Below, one piece after another: positions 34,927 through 62,515 of a stretch of DNA of 64,000 bases. The DNA lies in NCBI GenBank assembly GCA_014859685.1, contig JACUTU010000003.1, forward strand, positions 62,001 to 126,000, written 5' to 3'. This stretch comes from Sulfurospirillum sp. (GTDB lineage Bacteria; Campylobacterota; Campylobacteria; Campylobacterales; Sulfurospirillaceae). The translations under genes and the position numbers were made by a program. Under the pieces are notes generated by a model. It was not told the DNA's origin. It was given only the letters and a program-made list of their open reading frames with translations, and did not search any database. Positions within the stretch are counted from its first letter, which is position 1; each line of letters begins with the position of its first letter.

Positions 34927-35065
34927 ATCCGTACCACAATCCTTAATTTTGATGCAATTATTGTATCTATTTTAAGCAAGATTTGTTATAAATTGTATAT
35001 TAGAATATTTATTTTATATAACTTTAAAGAGTATTTTATACATAAACAAAGCATAGAATTACTAA

Positions 35066-35155
35066 TTGACCTTACGCACTTTTGCAAAAGTTCGTAAGAT
35101 ACTCTTTTCGTGGCTTTAGGGGGGTTGTAGGGATTTTTATCCCTGCAACTCAACC
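35066..35155 (-). repeat. Intergenic inverted-end element, copy 2 (inverted, about 90 bp)
   Basis: Read on the minus strand it gives GCAGGGATAAAAATCCC, then CTAAAGCCACGAAAAG, and ends CAAAAGTGCGTAAGGTCAA, matching the right two-thirds of copies 1 and 4. The left terminus is missing. It sits between the nifU 3' end and the ligase 5' end. The remaining AT-rich part of this 310-bp gap shows nothing else. Confidence 0.75.
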
Positions 35156-47832: not shown

Positions 47833-47917
47833 GCGGATGTGGTGAAATTGGTAGACACGCCAGACTTAGGATCTGGTGCCGAGAGGCATGGGAGTTCGAG
47901 TCTCTTCATCCGCACCA
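47833..47917 (+). tRNA. tRNA-Leu(TAG)
   Basis: This is a class II tRNA with a long variable arm (TGCCGAGAGGCA). Acceptor GCGGATG pairs with CATCCGC; the loop CTTAGGA carries anticodon TAG; CCA is encoded. It is the last tRNA of the cluster and borders the accessory island, a typical integration neighbourhood. Confidence 0.97.
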
Positions 47918-48683: not shown

Positions 48684-50648
48684 ATGAAAAAAAACATAAT
48701 AGAAGAACAAACCATAAACGATAACAACTACCAAAAACTCAAAGAGCTTTTTCCTCATGCTGTTAGTATTGATGAAGATGGGAAGTATATCATCGATAAA
48801 GAGAAATTACAGATGAGTTTAGATCCTTCAAAGGCGGAGATAAAAGAGGATGGTTATGGGCTTAATTGGGTTGGGAAGAAAGAGGCTTATCATGGGGCAT
48901 TTACTAAAAACTATAAGGTTTTAAAACCGCTTCAAGATGATAGTAAAAACTGGGATGAGACGGAGAATGTTCTTATAAAAGGGGATAATCTTGATGCTTT
49001 AAAGATTCTAAGACATAACTATTTTGAAGTTATCAAGATGATATATATCGACCCGCCTTACAATACCAAAAATGATGGTTTTGTTTATAATGACAACTTC
49101 ACATCTAACACAGAACAAACACTTGAAGAGTTGGGGTATGACAAAGAGTATATTGACTACATAGAGAACATACAAGGGGCGAAAACACATAGTGGGTGGC
49201 TTAGTTTTATGTATCCGCGGCTTTTACTTGCTCGTGATTTGCTTAAAGATGATGGGGTGATATTTATCTCTATTGATGATAAAGAACAAGCACAGTTAAA
49301 GTTGTTATGTGATGATATTTTTGGTGGAGATAATTTAATAGGACTAATCCCTGTAATAATGAATTTAAAGGGTAATCAAGATAATTTTGGATTTGCAGAT
49401 ACTCATGAGTATCTTTTTTGTTATGCAAAAAATAAAGAACTTTGTAATATAGGTAAATTTGATATCGATGAAGATGAAATCTATGAAGAATGGACAGAAG
49501 ATGATTATGGATTATATAAAAAAGCTGATGGGTTACGAAGAACAGGCGATGACGCTCCAAGAGAAAAAAGACAAAAAGGTTGGTTTCCTGTTTTTATAAC
49601 AGATGAAGATAAAGTTTATGTGACTGAAGATGACAAGCCATTAAGTGCTAATGATACTGTAGTCTATCCAATTAACGATGAGGGAGAAGAATTGTCATGG
49701 TCATGGAGTAAGGCAAAAATTATTAATGATAATCATAATTTGATAGTTACTAAAGGACGAAATGGGAATAAAACTATTTATAAAAAGCAAAGACCAGAAA
49801 TCGGTGATTTACCTACCAAAAAACCTAAATCATTTTTTTATAAAGCTGATTATAGTACAAGTACTGCTACAACTCAATTAAAAAATTTAATGGAGAAAAA
49901 ACTTTTTAAATCGCCTAAACCAGTTCCATTTATAAAAGATTTGTTAACTATTGGAATGAATGCTGATGATACTATCCTAGACTTCTTCGCAGGAAGCGGA
50001 ACAACCGCTCATGCGGTGATGGACTTAAACGCCAAAGATGGTGGCAACAGAAAATATATTTGTGTACAGTGGGCGGAAGAGACGCCTCTTAAAAGTGAAG
50101 CACGAAAGGCTGGATATGAGACTATTTTTGACATTACAAAAGCAAGGATAGATAAAGCTGGGGAGAAGATCTTGGGCGAAGCTAAAGCATCGCTTCCCAA
50201 AGAGCAAACGCTTTTTAGTGGGGATGAAGTCCCAACTCCGTTAGATGTCGGGTTTAGAACTTTTGAAGTGGTAGAAGATGCCAAACAGTGTATCTACCAA
50301 AAATCACTCGATACGGTAACTCAAGAGGATTTGTTTGTTTGTATGAGTAAGTCACATATACAAAGCAACGAAGAGATACTTTATAACCTTTTTGTCGCGG
50401 AAAATCTGCCGCTGAGTGTCAAGTATGAAACGCTCATACAAAACAAACTCTATCTAGCTTCAAATGTCGCTTTTGTACTGGGCGATATGACATCCAATCA
50501 ACTTGTAGCAGCACTTAAAAATAAAAAAGAGTGTGAGTATATCACGGTGTATTCTCCAAATATTAGTAATGATAGTCTTACGCTTGAGATAGAGAGTAAT
50601 ATTTCAAAGCTTGGTATCAAACCTGATAAATTAAGATTTAGGGGATAA
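48684..50648 (+). CDS. mod: Type III restriction-modification DNA methyltransferase (Mod)
   Basis: This 654-aa beta-class N6-adenine methyltransferase has motif IV (YIDPPYNTKNDGF, residues about 121-133) before motif I (DFFAGSGTTAHAV, about 433-445). The region between them is the variable target-recognition domain. Mod modifies one strand of an asymmetric site and gives Res its specificity. Codons 2-4 form an A8 tract after ATG that could slip. It is first in a five-gene operon whose gaps are two to three bases or overlaps. Confidence 0.95.
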   Translation: MKKNIIEEQTINDNNYQKLKELFPHAVSIDEDGKYIIDKEKLQMSLDPSKAEIKEDGYGLNWVGKKEAYHGAFTKNYKVLKPLQDDSKNWDETENVLIKGDNLDALKILRHNYFEVIKMIYIDPPYNTKNDGFVYNDNFTSNTEQTLEELGYDKEYIDYIENIQGAKTHSGWLSFMYPRLLLARDLLKDDGVIFISIDDKEQAQLKLLCDDIFGGDNLIGLIPVIMNLKGNQDNFGFADTHEYLFCYAKNKELCNIGKFDIDEDEIYEEWTEDDYGLYKKADGLRRTGDDAPREKRQKGWFPVFITDEDKVYVTEDDKPLSANDTVVYPINDEGEELSWSWSKAKIINDNHNLIVTKGRNGNKTIYKKQRPEIGDLPTKKPKSFFYKADYSTSTATTQLKNLMEKKLFKSPKPVPFIKDLLTIGMNADDTILDFFAGSGTTAHAVMDLNAKDGGNRKYICVQWAEETPLKSEARKAGYETIFDITKARIDKAGEKILGEAKASLPKEQTLFSGDEVPTPLDVGFRTFEVVEDAKQCIYQKSLDTVTQEDLFVCMSKSHIQSNEEILYNLFVAENLPLSVKYETLIQNKLYLASNVAFVLGDMTSNQLVAALKNKKECEYITVYSPNISNDSLTLEIESNISKLGIKPDKLRFRG

Positions 50649-50650
50649 AG

Positions 50651-50941
50651 ATGAAAAAAGAACAGATATTAGAGTATTTGAAAAGTCACAAAGATGAGTT
50701 TGCTAAAAAATATCAAATTACAAAATTAGCTCTTTTTGGCTCAGTTGCAAGAGATGAAAGCCATGAGAGTAGCGATATTGATATAGCTATTGATACAAAA
50801 CTAAGTGATTATTTTTTGCTTTATGATTTTAAAGAGAGTTTGGAAAAAGCATTTGGTACAAAAGTAGACATTGTAAGAGTAAGAGAAAAGATGAATGCAT
50901 CTCTTAAAAAGCGTATTTTAAAGGATGGTATCTATGTATGA
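50651..50941 (+). CDS. mntA: MntA-type minimal nucleotidyltransferase antitoxin
   Basis: This 96-aa MNT-fold protein has ALFGSVARDESHESSDIDIA (residues about 27-46), the GSxARxxxxxxSDID signature with both catalytic Asp residues. Family members antidote HEPN toxins by transferring AMP to a toxin tyrosine. It sits two bases after mod and overlaps hepT, as in free-standing modules, but here lies inside an R-M operon. Confidence 0.9.
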   Translation: MKKEQILEYLKSHKDEFAKKYQITKLALFGSVARDESHESSDIDIAIDTKLSDYFLLYDFKESLEKAFGTKVDIVRVREKMNASLKKRILKDGIYV

Positions 50942-51305
50942 TGAAGAATTGGTGCTTGATATTTTAGATCAGATAGTAGAAGCGATAGAAATAGTGCAAG
51001 AGCGATGTAAATTTGCGAATTGTGAAAATGACTTTATGGATACAAAAGAGGGACAAGAGAAGTTGGATAGTATCTGTATGAAGCTTATAGCTGTAGGTGA
51101 AAGCCTTAAAAATATAGACAAACTTACAGATAAAAAGCTTTTAGAAGAGTATCCTCAAATAGAATGGAGAAAGATAAAAGGGATACGAGATTTTATTTCA
51201 CATCACTATTTTGATTTGGATGCGGAGGTGATATTTGGGATTTGTCAAGATCATATTGATGATTTGTTAGTAGTGCTAAAACAGATGAGAAGTGATTTAG
51301 AGTAA
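50934..51305 (+). CDS. hepT: HepT-type HEPN ribonuclease toxin (DUF86)
   Basis: The 123-aa all-helical protein has the HEPN active site R-x4-H-x-Y in KGIRDFISHHYFDLD near residue 85, with the Tyr that MntA-type partners AMPylate. ATG 50934 has AAGGA eight bases upstream and is preferred over ATG 50925. Its stop overlaps the res start (TAATG). Confidence 0.9.
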   Translation: MYDEELVLDILDQIVEAIEIVQERCKFANCENDFMDTKEGQEKLDSICMKLIAVGESLKNIDKLTDKKLLEEYPQIEWRKIKGIRDFISHHYFDLDAEVIFGICQDHIDDLLVVLKQMRSDLE

Positions 51306-54244
51306 TGCTAAAAATAAAATTTGACAGATTAGATTATCAGGAACAAGCGGTAGATAGTATCAGTGATGTATTTAAAAATATAGCGTTTGTGCCAAATGAC
51401 AATAGAAAAAGTAACCCATCTTTTGATCTTCAAGCTTCTAAAAGTAATTTGGTAGAAAACATCTCAAAGGTAAGAGAATCAAATAAAGTTGATATAGGTG
51501 AAGTATCTATCAAAGATGAACTTGTGGTTGATACTTTGATGGAAACAGGTACGGGTAAAACTTTTACTTTTTTGGAGTCTATCTATAGGCTTAATCGTGA
51601 CTATGGACTAAGTAAATTTATCATCTTAGTACCTTCCAACCCTATACGACAAGGTACAATCAAAAATATAAAAATCACAAAAGAGTTCTTTGTAAAAGAG
51701 TATAGCAAACAAATATCAGTATTTAACTATAGTGAAAAAACTGTATTAAATTATATCAATGCGAGTGATCAAAATATCTCAGTGCTTGTATCGACTTACC
51801 AGTCATTTAACAAAGCTTCTAACAACATAAATAAAAGTAAGATAGAACAAAGCCTCATCGGTCGTGCAAAGAGCTATATGCAAGCTATCGCACAGCTTCG
51901 CCCTGTAATAGTCATAGATGAACCGCATCGATTTGAGGGTAAGCAGACTGCAAAATACCTCAAAGAGTTTAATGCACTTTTTACCTTGCGTTTTGGAGCC
52001 ACTTACAAAGGGGAAGAGTATAAAAATCTTATATACACTTTAGATAGTGTTGATGCTTTTAGTCGAGGTCTAGTTAAAGCTATCACGGTTGATACTGTTG
52101 GAAATGAAAATGTAGATAATCATACTATTGCATTTACAAAAGTAGCTGGAAGTAGTCAAAAAGATTATAAGGCAACTATTGAGTATAAAGATATAAACTC
52201 CAAAAATCAAAAAGTAGTTTTAGAAAAAGGTGAAAACCTTGGCGAAAAAGTGGGTATTGAGTATTTAAATAGCTATGTTGTGGAAAAGATTACAAAAAGT
52301 GAGATTATCTTTACAAATGATATTTCACTTCCTCTTGGAGTTGGTGAAAGTTATGGTGTACTCCTTAATGAGATGCAAAAAGTCATCATAGATACTGCCA
52401 TAAAAAACCATTTTGAGAGAGAAGAAGAGCTATTTAAACTTGATATAAAAGCACTCTGTTTGTTCTTCATAGATAGAGTTGATAAGTATCTTACAGATGA
52501 GGGAACAACTGGAGAACTTGCAAAGCTTTTTGAGAAGCTTTATCTAAAAAATTTAGAGGAAGTTTTAAAAAGAAAAAATCTTGATGAAGAGTATAAAAAG
52601 TATCTTTTGAAAACAAAAGAAAGTCTAAACGAGATACATAGCGGATACTTTGCTAAGTCTAAAAAAGAGGGAGATGAAGCGGAAGCGATAGAGCTAATAC
52701 TCAACAAAAAAGAGGAGCTACTCTCTTTTGATAGTGATTTGAGATTTATCTTCTCTCAGTGGGCTTTACAAGAGGGGTGGGATAACCCAAATGTAATGAC
52801 ACTGTGCAAACTGGCCCCAAGTAGCTCTAAAATATCCAAACTCCAACAAATTGGTCGTGGACTTAGACTGGCTGTTAATCAAGATGGTAAGAGAATAACT
52901 GGGGATGATAGTAATTTTGAGTTTATTAATGAGCTTTTTGTAGTGGTGCCATCAACGGAAGAAAACTTTGTAGCTTCCATACAAAATGAGATAAGTGAAA
53001 ATAGCATTAAGCAAATCTCAAAACTGTTTAACGAAGATGTTATGGTAGAAAATCATATAGCAGCTACACCAAGAGCAGCAACGAAACTCCTTGATGAACT
53101 TGAAGAAATTGGTTTTATTACTATTAACGAAGATGATATGAGTGAAATAACACTATCAAAAGAGGAGTATAGTTCAAAATCAAAAGAGCTTGAATCTTTG
53201 GAGATGAAAGGGTGCGATAGCAAAAAACTAAAAGAGTATTTTGATGGCTTCTTTAAAACATCTAACCGAGTTAAAGCTAAAGATAGAAGTGCTAAAAAAG
53301 AAAAAGGAAAAATCAAAATTCATCAAGCCAACTTTAAAAAGTTTAAAGCTCTGTGGGACAACCTAAACTATGATGCAGTTGTAAAGTATGATATTGATAG
53401 CGATACTTTAATCAAATCAGCGATACAGATGATAGATACAAACTTTGAGATAAGCGGGCAAGATATCATCATAAAAAGAGATAAGAATGTTGAAAGTAAA
53501 GAGAAACATGATAGCCAAAAAGATACTGTAGCAGTTGAAACTCACTCGATTTTTACACTTTATGAGTTTATAAAAGCATTATCAAACAATACTAAACTTA
53601 GTATGCAAACAATAGCTAAAGTCATGCATGGAATTAAAAAAGAGAAGTTTGACTTAATACCTCAAAATGAGAATTTAGCACTTAAAAAGATAGAAGAACA
53701 GCTTATCAGTGCAATCTATGAAACGATTATAAATAAAATATCTTATGACTTAAGAGAGATAAAAACTTGTAACACTTCTCTTACCGATAAAAATGGCAAC
53801 ATGAAAGAGTTTATACAAGAGGGCAGTCTAGGTGTTGAAACTTATAAAATAAAATCAAAAAATGTAAGAGAAAAGTCAATTTATGATGAAGATTTTATGG
53901 AGGTTGATAGTAGTATTGAAAAAATAACAATAGATGAGTCAAGTGATAAAAAAATTGTAGTTTTTGGAAAACTGCCAAAAGTCAATATTCCGACCGCTCA
54001 TGGAAGAAACTATAATCCAGATTTTGGATATGTAATAGAGTCTAGTGATCACAAAGAACTATACTTTGTTGTTGAGACTAAGGGGTATGATAAATTTGAT
54101 GATATAAGCACTAAAGAGAAATTGCAGATAAAAAGTGCCGAAGCATTTTTTAAAGAGTTAAAAGATAATGGTGTAAATGTAGAGTATAAGACCAAGCTCA
54201 ATAGTCCAGAACTGACACAGCTGATAAGTGATATTTTGAAGTAA
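51305..54244 (+). CDS. res: Type III restriction enzyme, Res subunit
   Basis: This 979-aa superfamily 2 ATPase/endonuclease has Walker A METGTGKTFTFLE (about residue 80), motif II VIDEPHRFEG, motif III LRFGATYKG, and motif VI LQQIGRGLRLAVN (about 514). The C-terminal PD-ExK nuclease is visible as NPDFGYVIES followed by FVVETKGYDKF (about 903-925). All motifs are intact, so the system looks functional. The nuclease cuts when Mod-Res meets unmethylated head-to-head sites. Confidence 0.95.
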   Translation: MLKIKFDRLDYQEQAVDSISDVFKNIAFVPNDNRKSNPSFDLQASKSNLVENISKVRESNKVDIGEVSIKDELVVDTLMETGTGKTFTFLESIYRLNRDYGLSKFIILVPSNPIRQGTIKNIKITKEFFVKEYSKQISVFNYSEKTVLNYINASDQNISVLVSTYQSFNKASNNINKSKIEQSLIGRAKSYMQAIAQLRPVIVIDEPHRFEGKQTAKYLKEFNALFTLRFGATYKGEEYKNLIYTLDSVDAFSRGLVKAITVDTVGNENVDNHTIAFTKVAGSSQKDYKATIEYKDINSKNQKVVLEKGENLGEKVGIEYLNSYVVEKITKSEIIFTNDISLPLGVGESYGVLLNEMQKVIIDTAIKNHFEREEELFKLDIKALCLFFIDRVDKYLTDEGTTGELAKLFEKLYLKNLEEVLKRKNLDEEYKKYLLKTKESLNEIHSGYFAKSKKEGDEAEAIELILNKKEELLSFDSDLRFIFSQWALQEGWDNPNVMTLCKLAPSSSKISKLQQIGRGLRLAVNQDGKRITGDDSNFEFINELFVVVPSTEENFVASIQNEISENSIKQISKLFNEDVMVENHIAATPRAATKLLDELEEIGFITINEDDMSEITLSKEEYSSKSKELESLEMKGCDSKKLKEYFDGFFKTSNRVKAKDRSAKKEKGKIKIHQANFKKFKALWDNLNYDAVVKYDIDSDTLIKSAIQMIDTNFEISGQDIIIKRDKNVESKEKHDSQKDTVAVETHSIFTLYEFIKALSNNTKLSMQTIAKVMHGIKKEKFDLIPQNENLALKKIEEQLISAIYETIINKISYDLREIKTCNTSLTDKNGNMKEFIQEGSLGVETYKIKSKNVREKSIYDEDFMEVDSSIEKITIDESSDKKIVVFGKLPKVNIPTAHGRNYNPDFGYVIESSDHKELYFVVETKGYDKFDDISTKEKLQIKSAEAFFKELKDNGVNVEYKTKLNSPELTQLISDILK

Positions 54245-54247
54245 ATT

Positions 54248-54913
54248 ATGGAAAATGCAGATTTGTCTTTAGATCAATGTAGTGTGACAGACTACAAGCA
54301 ATGTTCCTTAACAAAGTATAAATATCATGATGAGTGTATTCTACATTGCTCTAAAGAGGATGCTATGTGTGATTATCATAAAGCGTGGGAAGATTTAACT
54401 CTGTTTAAAGAAAAATTACTTGAGTATATTGTAGATATTATTTGTAATCATAAAGAAGAAACTGAACAGTTTAATCGCACTCTTGTATTAGGATACATGA
54501 GAGGAGCGGTAGATAATGAATTTCTTGAAGAGCAAATAAAAAGTACTACAGTAGTATTTAATTTTGTCTCTTTTCCTGTATATGATGAGCGAGATGAATG
54601 GGATTATACGCCTATATTGCAAAGATTGGGTAGAGTTCATTTTAACTACTGTAAGTTTTATGTAGCTTGGATTGATTTACCCCAGCAAAAGGTTTTTTTT
54701 CAAGATTGTGAGTTTTGTGATCACTGGAATCTACAAGATTATGAGATGCTCGATAATGTTGATGAAGTAATCTATCAAAATTGTTTGTTTACAGATGGTG
54801 TAAGTTGTTCTAGCAATGATAAAGCTGTAGAGTTGCCATATAGTCAGTTTAGAGATTGTGAATTGCAAGAAATAGAGTGTCAAAATGTGGTATTTCAAAA
54901 AGTGATGAGTTAA
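54248..54913 (+). CDS. Cys-rich acidic protein with a pentapeptide-like C-terminal half
   Basis: This 221-aa protein has about 13 Cys and many Asp/Glu. The N-terminal third has spaced cysteines (CDYHKAWEDL region), and the C-terminal half shows aromatic-x-x-C periodicity (HFNYCKFYVAWIDL, VFFQDCEFCDHWNL, VIYQNCLFTDGVSC, QFRDCELQEIECQNVVF), like a right-handed beta-helix of degenerate pentapeptide repeats. The family is not recognised. It begins three bases after res, so it is part of the R-M operon. A DNA-mimic or regulatory role is conjecture. Confidence 0.6.
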   Translation: MENADLSLDQCSVTDYKQCSLTKYKYHDECILHCSKEDAMCDYHKAWEDLTLFKEKLLEYIVDIICNHKEETEQFNRTLVLGYMRGAVDNEFLEEQIKSTTVVFNFVSFPVYDERDEWDYTPILQRLGRVHFNYCKFYVAWIDLPQQKVFFQDCEFCDHWNLQDYEMLDNVDEVIYQNCLFTDGVSCSSNDKAVELPYSQFRDCELQEIECQNVVFQKVMS

Positions 54914-54974
54914 CCGAGTGTTTACCCAACAATCTTACAATTTCATCAAGCAATTTCATTCATACTGATAATAA

Positions 54975-55006
54975 GCAAAAAAGTTCAAGCCAAGCGGCTT
55001 TTTTGC
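54975..55006 (+). terminator. Terminator of the R-M operon
   Basis: GCAAAAAAG pairs with CTTTTTTGC around an inner AAGCC/GGCTT stem; the right arm supplies the T-run. It lies 60 bp after the last island gene and marks its right edge. Confidence 0.65.
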
Positions 55007-55033
55007 TTTCTCCCTTTTTCATCTTCATTTTGT

Positions 55034-55039
55034 TATAAT
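55034..55039 (+). promoter_or_regulatory. -10 box upstream of the AI-2E permease
   Basis: TATAAT lies just before the 40-bp palindromic element, so transcripts would start at about 55046 and carry a hairpin at their 5' end. Confidence 0.5.
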
Positions 55040-55041
55040 TA

Positions 55042-55081
55042 CTGACCTTACGAACTTTTTTGCAAAATTGCGTAAGGTCAG
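55042..55081. repeat. Intergenic inverted-end element, copy 3 (minimal 40-bp palindrome)
   Basis: CTGACCTTACG at the left and CGTAAGGTCAG at the right form near-perfect inverted ends around aaCTTTTTTGCAAAAttG. It is equivalent to a right terminus fused to its own mirror image, with none of the internal sequence of copies 1 and 4. Confidence 0.8.
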
Positions 55082-55104
55082 TTAAAATTTTAAAAGGTTC
55101 TTCT

Positions 55105-56151
55105 GTGCAGGCTAAAAGTGGTTATGATATTTATAAACTTTGGATGAGCTTTGCGGCGTTTGTGGTAATTATTGCTGGTTTGAAAGCGGCAAGTAGTATC
55201 ATCGTACCTATTTTGTTGGCTATCTTTATCGCAACTATCGCGGCACCTTTGATGTTTTTTTTGCAAGATAGGGGTTTGCCTAGAATCGTAGCATTTTTTA
55301 CTGTCTTGCTTTTAGTGGTTTTGTTGCTTTTTGGTATAGGGGTGATTTTAAGCAGTTCTTTGGACGGTTTTCTAGCAAGTATTGCAGGCTATAGACAGCG
55401 ATGGAGCGGTGTTATCATTTCTGTGCGTGATTTTTTAAATGGTTTTGGAATTGACTTTATCCAAAGAGAGGATCTTGAAAATCTTTTGGATCCATCTGGT
55501 GTTTTGAGATTTGCCAACTCATTTTTCCGCTCATTTAGTGTGTTGCTTTCTAACTCGTTTTTTATTTTTTTAGCAGTAACTTTTATGCTTTTTGAAACCT
55601 CTAGCTTGAAAAAGAAGATTTTTTTACTTTTAAAAAAAGACGAAAATCACGAGAATCCTTTTGAGATTTTTAGCCAAAAACTTAACAAATACCTTCTCAT
55701 CAAAACACTTGCCTCTCTTGCAACAGGGATTATCATAGCCATGGGTTTGTGGCTGCTACAAGTTGAATTTGCACTGATGCTCGGTCTCATCGCTTTTTTA
55801 CTCAATTATGTGCCAAGTATCGGCTCAATTATCGCCGCTATTCCCGCAGTTGTTGTAGCACTTTTGGGGCTTGAGCTTGATATCGTGATCTCGGTAGTGC
55901 TTTTGTATCTTTGCACAAATATACTCATCGGCAATTTTGTAGAGCCACGCTTTTTGGGCAAAGGTTTGGGGCTTTCTGTGCTGGTGGTGTTTTTGTCACT
56001 ACTTTTTTGGGGATTTGTTTTTGGACCTATCGGAATGTTTTTAGCAGTTCCTTTGAGTATGACCATCAAAATAGCACTCGAATCGCATCCAAGCACAGGC
56101 TCGCTAGCTATGCTTTTAAGTGACATAGATACACGCAAAGATTCACAATGA
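55105..56151 (+). CDS. AI-2E family (PerM/YdiK-type) membrane transporter
   Basis: This 348-aa protein has about eight helices; the C-terminal blocks LLNYVPSIGSIIAAIPAV and GFVFGPIGMFLAVPL are typical of the AI-2E exporter/permease family, whose substrates vary. The start is GTG 55105 (VQAKSGYDIYKL) with AAAAGG upstream. The longer frame from 55060 begins inside the palindromic repeat and is rejected. Confidence 0.88.
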   Translation: MQAKSGYDIYKLWMSFAAFVVIIAGLKAASSIIVPILLAIFIATIAAPLMFFLQDRGLPRIVAFFTVLLLVVLLLFGIGVILSSSLDGFLASIAGYRQRWSGVIISVRDFLNGFGIDFIQREDLENLLDPSGVLRFANSFFRSFSVLLSNSFFIFLAVTFMLFETSSLKKKIFLLLKKDENHENPFEIFSQKLNKYLLIKTLASLATGIIIAMGLWLLQVEFALMLGLIAFLLNYVPSIGSIIAAIPAVVVALLGLELDIVISVVLLYLCTNILIGNFVEPRFLGKGLGLSVLVVFLSLLFWGFVFGPIGMFLAVPLSMTIKIALESHPSTGSLAMLLSDIDTRKDSQ

Positions 56152-56194
56152 AAACACATTTTTACACTATTATTTTGTTTTTTGAGGAGAGAGT

Positions 56195-56419
56195 ATGAGG
56201 AAGATTTTTGTTTTGGTTTTGTTTGTTGTTGCACTTTTTGCAAAAAGTGATTTCCAGGCGATGAGTACACAAGAACTTTTAGCAATGATGGGCTATGTTG
56301 CACCTTCTGCACAAAAAGATTTGGCGTATGAATTGCAAATGCGTGAGCCAAAGATGAGTGTACAAGAAAAAAAAACTTATGAAGAAAATCTGAAAAAAAT
56401 TAAAAATTCCAAACAATGA
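56195..56419 (+). CDS. DUF1104-family small exported protein
   Basis: This 74-aa protein has a signal peptide (MRKIFVLVLFVVALFAKS) and a mature part with MSTQELLAMMGYV, typical of DUF1104, a Helicobacter/Campylobacter-centred family of unknown function. It overlaps the response regulator gene by four bases. The location suggests a periplasmic partner of the two-component system. Confidence 0.75.
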   Translation: MRKIFVLVLFVVALFAKSDFQAMSTQELLAMMGYVAPSAQKDLAYELQMREPKMSVQEKKTYEENLKKIKNSKQ

Positions 56420-62355: not shown

Positions 62356-62515
62356 CTGATGTTACGCACTAAAACAAACGCGTCTGTTTTGTAAAGAAAC
62401 TTTGTTTTGCAGCAGGAACAAAATATCCCCACAATTCTCTAAGGCTACGAAAAGGATACTTTTTTAGAAACTGAGAGATATTTACAAACTTTTTTGCAAA
62501 AGTGCGTAAGGTCAG
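62356..62515 (+). repeat. Intergenic inverted-end element, copy 4 (160 bp, most complete)
   Basis: CTGATGTTACGCACT at the left and AGTGCGTAAGGTCAG at the right are inverted repeats with two mismatches. The core, with CTAAGGCTACGAAAAG and GAGATATTTACAAAC, aligns with copy 1 throughout. It fills most of the 302-bp gap between glnB and the ZIP gene; the rest holds the glnB terminator and the ZIP promoter. It encodes no ORF of its own. Confidence 0.8.

Follow-up and report, generated by a model that had tools for sequence, protein, structure and literature searches.

Within the window (the whole 64,000-nucleotide stretch of Sulfurospirillum DNA analysed here), a type III restriction-modification (R-M) operon begins after an array of tRNA genes whose last member, tRNA-Leu(TAG), extends to 47917, and closes with a short open reading frame, hereafter gene X, which is the final gene of the island before its edge (Table 1). 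Between mod and res lies an MNT/HEPN pair of the MntA-HepT-like toxin-antitoxin type, and a similar pair directly follows the homologue of X at another locus (L099). Gene X runs on the forward strand from an ATG to a TAA (54248-54913), starts 3 nt past the res stop codon (54244) and encodes 221 amino acids, among them 13 cysteines and 42 aspartates and glutamates against 19 lysines and arginines, for a pI of 4.4. To its right stands a conserved chromosomal element, followed by a gene for an AI-2E/PerM-like transporter.

Table 1. Features of the type III R-M island, gene X and the adjoining chromosome (positions in the window).
Feature	Position	Strand	Basis
tRNA-Leu(TAG), left edge of island	47833..47917	+	integration hotspot in relatives
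Type III methyltransferase Mod	48684..50648	+	PADLOC MTase_III 6e-159
MNT nucleotidyltransferase (50651-50941) and HEPN/HepT-like protein (50925-51305)	50651..51305	+	Pfam; PADLOC PDC-S09
Type III restriction subunit Res, apparently intact	51305..54244	+	PADLOC REase_III 4e-152; Pfam ResIII, RE_endonuc
Gene X, N-terminal ~215 residues of a ~517-aa family plus borrowed stop codon	54248..54913	+	tblastn, alignments
Cys/His module, putative zinc knuckle, C11-x7-C19-x10-C30-I-L-H33-C34	54278..54349	+	regex across family
Helical region, residues 36-99	54353..54544	+	AlphaFold2 model
First beta-helix coils, residues 101-216, F-x-x-C-x-F ladder	54548..54895	+	AlphaFold2 model, motif count
Breakpoint: X homology ends ~54902, chromosomal element from 54908	54902..54908	.	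alignments to X of L003/L004 and to G001 L048 4230-4353
Conserved chromosomal element, candidate small RNA, promoter-like block and terminator hairpin	54908..55010	+	10 copies in 9 related genomes
Terminator hairpin, conserved loop GCCAAGC	54973..55008	+	fold, alignment
AI-2E/PerM-like transporter, chromosomal, right of island	55105..56151	+	orthologues in G001, G004, G006

A first-pass annotation had described gene X as an unrecognised, acidic, Cys-rich protein at the end of the R-M operon with an aromatic-x-x-Cys periodicity, and that description stands. The [FY]xxC motif occurs at residues 16, 132, 151, 176 and 201, five times against 1.58 expected from shuffled sequences (P=0.011), and a stricter hydrophobic-x-x-C-x-aromatic/Leu form five times against 1.19 (P=0.004), and the periodicity is therefore modestly above chance. 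None of the libraries searched (Pfam, NCBIfam, PADLOC, PDB) names the protein: no Pfam match reaches its cut-off, NCBIfam and PADLOC return none, and neither single-sequence nor profile searches of the PDB find a significant match or a relative of solved structure. The PADLOC 2023 models likewise match none of the X proteins of the window, L003, L041, L043, L093 and L102, and the literature, covered mainly through open-access papers and hence weak evidence of novelty, yielded no description of the family.

The family itself is considerably larger than its representative in the window. The first whole-genome search returned a 45% identical match inside a 521-aa open frame of a related genome, and a scan of GTDB genomes and of the phylum places full-length members (L003, L005, L006, L041-L045, L076) at ~490-560 aa. 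From the N-terminus onward, intact proteins carry a Cys/His knuckle, a small region of helices, a beta-helix of the pentapeptide type, two predicted C-terminal transmembrane (TM) helices and a basic tail. Aligned members share F-x-x-C-x-F ladders, a helical linker (T-x-RETFRIIK...SFDKIGN) and the motif C-x(2-7)-C-x(n)-C-x-[LF]-H-C, which is found in most close members, has a CxxC as its first Cys pair in several distant ones, and is absent from L046, L081 and the distant members linked to IIG or HsdR (L093, L095, L102). The window copy carries the N-terminal features of the family, namely the Cys/His motif (residues 11-34), the helical region and the first coils of the beta-helix; the full beta-helix and the two C-terminal TM helices are missing both from it and from its genome. 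By hydropathy, nine complete members have two TM segments apiece, whereas the window copy has none. Between the X genes of L003 and L004, dN is 0.026 and dS 0.138, values indicating that the intact family is under purifying selection. A phage or plasmid origin was considered and rejected on tblastn results: X of the window has no match in phages or plasmids, and the full-length protein has one weak plasmid match and none on a confirmed viral contig.

Structure prediction bears out the beta-helix suggested by the first-pass annotation for part of the protein only. The AlphaFold2 model of the window protein (alignment of 12 sequences, mean pLDDT 82.6) has helices at residues 46-67, 77-84 and 91-99, with strands of beta-helix type appearing only at about residue 101 and beyond, its first coils being few and irregular; the beta-helix is therefore confined to the second half, and the N-terminal half is helical. 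In the model of the full-length protein of L003 (18 sequences, pLDDT 84.9) strands extend from about residue 96 to 360, with regular coils of roughly 21 residues in the middle part, and TM helices follow at 428-450 and 490-515. The Cys/His segment has low model confidence in both, and zinc binding is therefore read from the motif. Searched against the PDB with Foldseek, the full-length model ranks a pentapeptide repeat protein first, with an E of 0.03 at best, and for the window model nothing reaches significance. With pentapeptide repeat proteins (PF00805, PF13576, PF13599; MfpA, AlbG and Qnr among them) X shares a predicted beta-helix with coils of roughly 20 residues, putatively of the right-handed quadrilateral fold, and a ladder of a comparable Cys/Ala-x-Phe/Leu-like kind. 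Distant relatives (L093, L102, L103, L105, L110) pass the Pentapeptide_3 (PF13576) cut-off, whereas close members fall below it (L003 and L006, 18 bits against 27) and X of the window has no Pfam match; we therefore describe the protein as built like a pentapeptide-type beta-helix and do not file it as a member of the Pfam family, from whose proteins it also differs in its Cys/His and helical N-terminus and its two C-terminal TM helices.

Where the window copy departs from its relatives can be located to within a few nucleotides. Searched by tblastn against positions 54001-56200, the protein of L003 (4933-6483) recovers residues 5-215 only, at 58% identity; nothing convincing corresponds to residues 216-517 there or elsewhere in the window's genome (G000), across which only residues 4-216 match and no full-length relative was found. 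Nucleotide homology to the X genes of L003 and L004 stops at GTATTTCAAAAAG (54890-54902). From 54908 onward (AGTTAACC...), the sequence belongs to the chromosomal element, 54908-55031 aligning to positions 4230-4353 of L048 in genome G001 (68.7%, E 2e-6), and the TAA of gene X (54911-54913) falls within it. The breakpoint is thus known from both sides, and gene X owes its stop codon to the element. With homology lost at about 54902, a chromosomal element immediately after and the rest of the gene absent, gene X is therefore a copy truncated at its 3' end and lying at the island edge, fused to chromosomal sequence, an incompleteness that the first-pass annotation missed. The only other members cut at this length, L047 and L082, both end at contig edges. 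Judged from the assembly rather than from reads, a misassembly at the junction is unlikely, both flanks being single-copy.

The element on the far side of the breakpoint is present once in the window's genome and recurs, in addition to the window copy (54908-55010, forward strand), at L048 (4230-4345), L050 (2795-2908), L141-L145, L147 and L148. A promoter-like block (TTAAC..GTTTAC..TAYAATTTCA) precedes a hairpin whose loop is invariant and whose stems vary yet stay complementary, a pattern that makes it a candidate small RNA conserved in this bacterial family; two copies compared with Rfam gave no credible match. Across the nine related genomes it stands behind differing genes (fur-like, cupin and others), and an initial idea that the right flank was the tail of a fur gene was dropped because what precedes the element is a cupin gene in G006 and still other genes at further sites. 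Both G001 and G006 have it upstream of an mla-perM cluster, with the PerM orthologues downstream of it; perM is downstream of the element in the window as well, and the element is hence ancestral chromosomal sequence. An inverted-repeat hairpin of ~40 nt, resembling dispersed elements of the REP type, also recurs in the genome, in the window at 55041-55083, 62482-62515 and 35063-35098, and at L137 (1809-1851).

At the opposite edge of the island, the same tRNA-Leu(TAG) is followed by an integrase-like ORF in G003 and by other gene sets in G002 and G005, so the site (L113, L114 and L115 in related genomes) is an insertion hotspot, and in G001 the tRNA array and perM lie on one contig, about 16 kb apart. 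Bounding of the island by a tRNA-Leu direct repeat was rejected, as the window holds a single copy of the tRNA 3' end and no second one; the right att site, if there was one, is therefore gone. The simplest history would be that the island inserted and that a later deletion at its right edge took the 3' 60% of gene X.

Intact members of the family keep varied company. Their genes directly adjoin type I hsdS and/or hsdR at L003/L004, L041, L043, L076 and L102 and type IIG genes at L082, L093 and L095, with the type III system of the window completing the set; at L005 the order is X, a KAP NTPase gene and, further along, hsdR. Counting L003/L004 once, R-M genes stand directly beside X at nine of 37 loci, against a chance adjacency of 1-3%, an estimate based on the 4.0 N6_Mtase genes that a genome of the phylum carries and on R-M genes assumed to number 10-30 per genome (P 1e-10 to 2e-6, with loci taken as independent though some are related by descent). 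The association with restriction is real, but a type III-specific partnership, which the first-pass annotation had raised as co-occurrence, was rejected, since type I and IIG systems make up the majority of the linked loci. A KAP NTPase gene (PADLOC PDC-S20) directly follows X in three operons of type I R-M (L003, L005, L041), recalling the KAP-NTPase defence candidates PDC-S20, PifA and QatA; X itself has no PADLOC match, and the R-M operon of the window has no KAP gene. Pentapeptide repeats and KAP NTPases both occur in predicted conflict systems (PMC7159879, PMC10853773). The defence cluster around intact X at L075 (9027-13352) and L003 (6496-9025) comprises type I R-M, the PDC-S20 KAP NTPase, a T5orf172 protein and an Avs2 homologue. 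Outside defence loci, X accompanies polysaccharide genes (L042, L044), Fic genes (L045, L077, L080) and SbcCD (L006), and a distant X gene occupies a fixed slot beside secD/secF (L106-L109, L111), followed in four cases by a gene for a small membrane protein and then leuS.

We consider it likely that gene X derives from an R-M-associated membrane protein as a copy cut short at its 3' end and probably without function: what survives matches the first 40% of a larger protein predicted to be membrane-anchored, and is probably a remnant and not a DNA mimic. Against this reading, the window ORF has neither an internal stop nor a frameshift and its model reaches a pLDDT of 82.6, features compatible with its expression and folding. 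A truncated protein retained as a soluble regulator that binds Mod, Res or a full-length relative and tunes restriction would account for an intact ORF only 3 nt after res and for an N-terminal half that folds confidently alone in the AlphaFold2 model; yet its stop codon comes from flanking DNA, its genome holds no full-length relative to bind, and among the members found there is no other natural truncation at this point, L047 and L082 being cut by contig edges, all of which leaves such a regulator improbable. Still harder to sustain is the DNA mimic proposed in the first-pass annotation, an MfpA- or Qnr-like protein that protects against Res or titrates Mod. Its appeal lies in the pI, the 42 acidic residues and the kinship with pentapeptide-type beta-helices, but over the first 215 residues the net charge runs from -24 in the window copy, where it is most extreme, through about -4 in close relatives to +3 in distant ones, the strong acidity being peculiar to the window copy and its closest kin. 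Because that acidity is not conserved, the idea is unsupported; moreover, a membrane anchor is predicted for the intact proteins, Foldseek matches to MfpA and AlbG are not significant (E 0.3-9) and the window copy retains just the first few irregular coils, so that we regard mimicry as extremely unlikely.

Two further proposals were weighed. The Cys/His module might make the protein a sensor of metal or redox state that controls the operon, an alternative also offered by the first-pass annotation, and a metal-binding-looking module is indeed present in most close members, with CxxC in several distant ones; but the motif is missing from L046, L081, L093, L095 and L102, no DNA-binding domain was recognised, and a structural zinc is the simpler reading, making such control very doubtful. 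Somewhat less remote, if still unlikely, is a membrane-depolarising channel effector like HalA of Hailong, in which the beta-helix would sense and the two-TM hairpins would oligomerise into a pore, the window copy then being a dead effector. In its favour, X is predicted to join a beta-helix to a C-terminal membrane part, HalA is likewise a membrane protein, described as an ion channel (PMC13275509), and the NCBIfam model of HalA (NF051894) weakly matches X of L003 (E 4e-4). That match, however, amounts to 19.6 bits against an equivalog cut-off of 250 and covers residues 163-235, the generic beta-helix part alone; the same model picks up many pentapeptide-like proteins across the phylum, and no genome in the phylum sample passes its cut-off. 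Membership of X in HalA was accordingly rejected on the NF051894 cut-off. No HalB-like partner was identified beside X; the only nucleotidyltransferases seen near it (window, L099) sit in MNT/HEPN-type pairs and are at most candidates for the HalB family.

For the intact protein, the likeliest role is to assist restriction systems from the membrane, as a tethered sensor or effector. In this view the N-terminal module would lie in the cytoplasm together with the beta-helix, tethered to the inner membrane, and the protein would act as a protein-binding sensor or scaffold, serving type I, IIG or III restriction as a sensor or membrane effector, at some loci together with a KAP NTPase. The window copy, having lost the anchor and most of the beta-helix, cannot act in this tethered capacity. 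Members at polysaccharide, Fic, SbcCD and secF-leuS loci argue against a purely defensive role. More specifically, and only tentatively, the intact protein may be an undescribed accessory R-M module, a membrane-tethered Cys/His-knuckle and beta-helix protein that plugs into type I, IIG and III operons and, with the KAP NTPase of some loci, provides a second layer of defence once restriction has been engaged or blocked. For the window itself the analysis corrects a tempting story, in which a broken gene fragment could pass for a compact DNA mimic. For the family, it brings to light a membrane protein whose neighbours include restriction systems of three mechanistically different kinds and which none of the defence libraries searched contains; if X works with restriction, DNA cleavage would be linked to events at the membrane.
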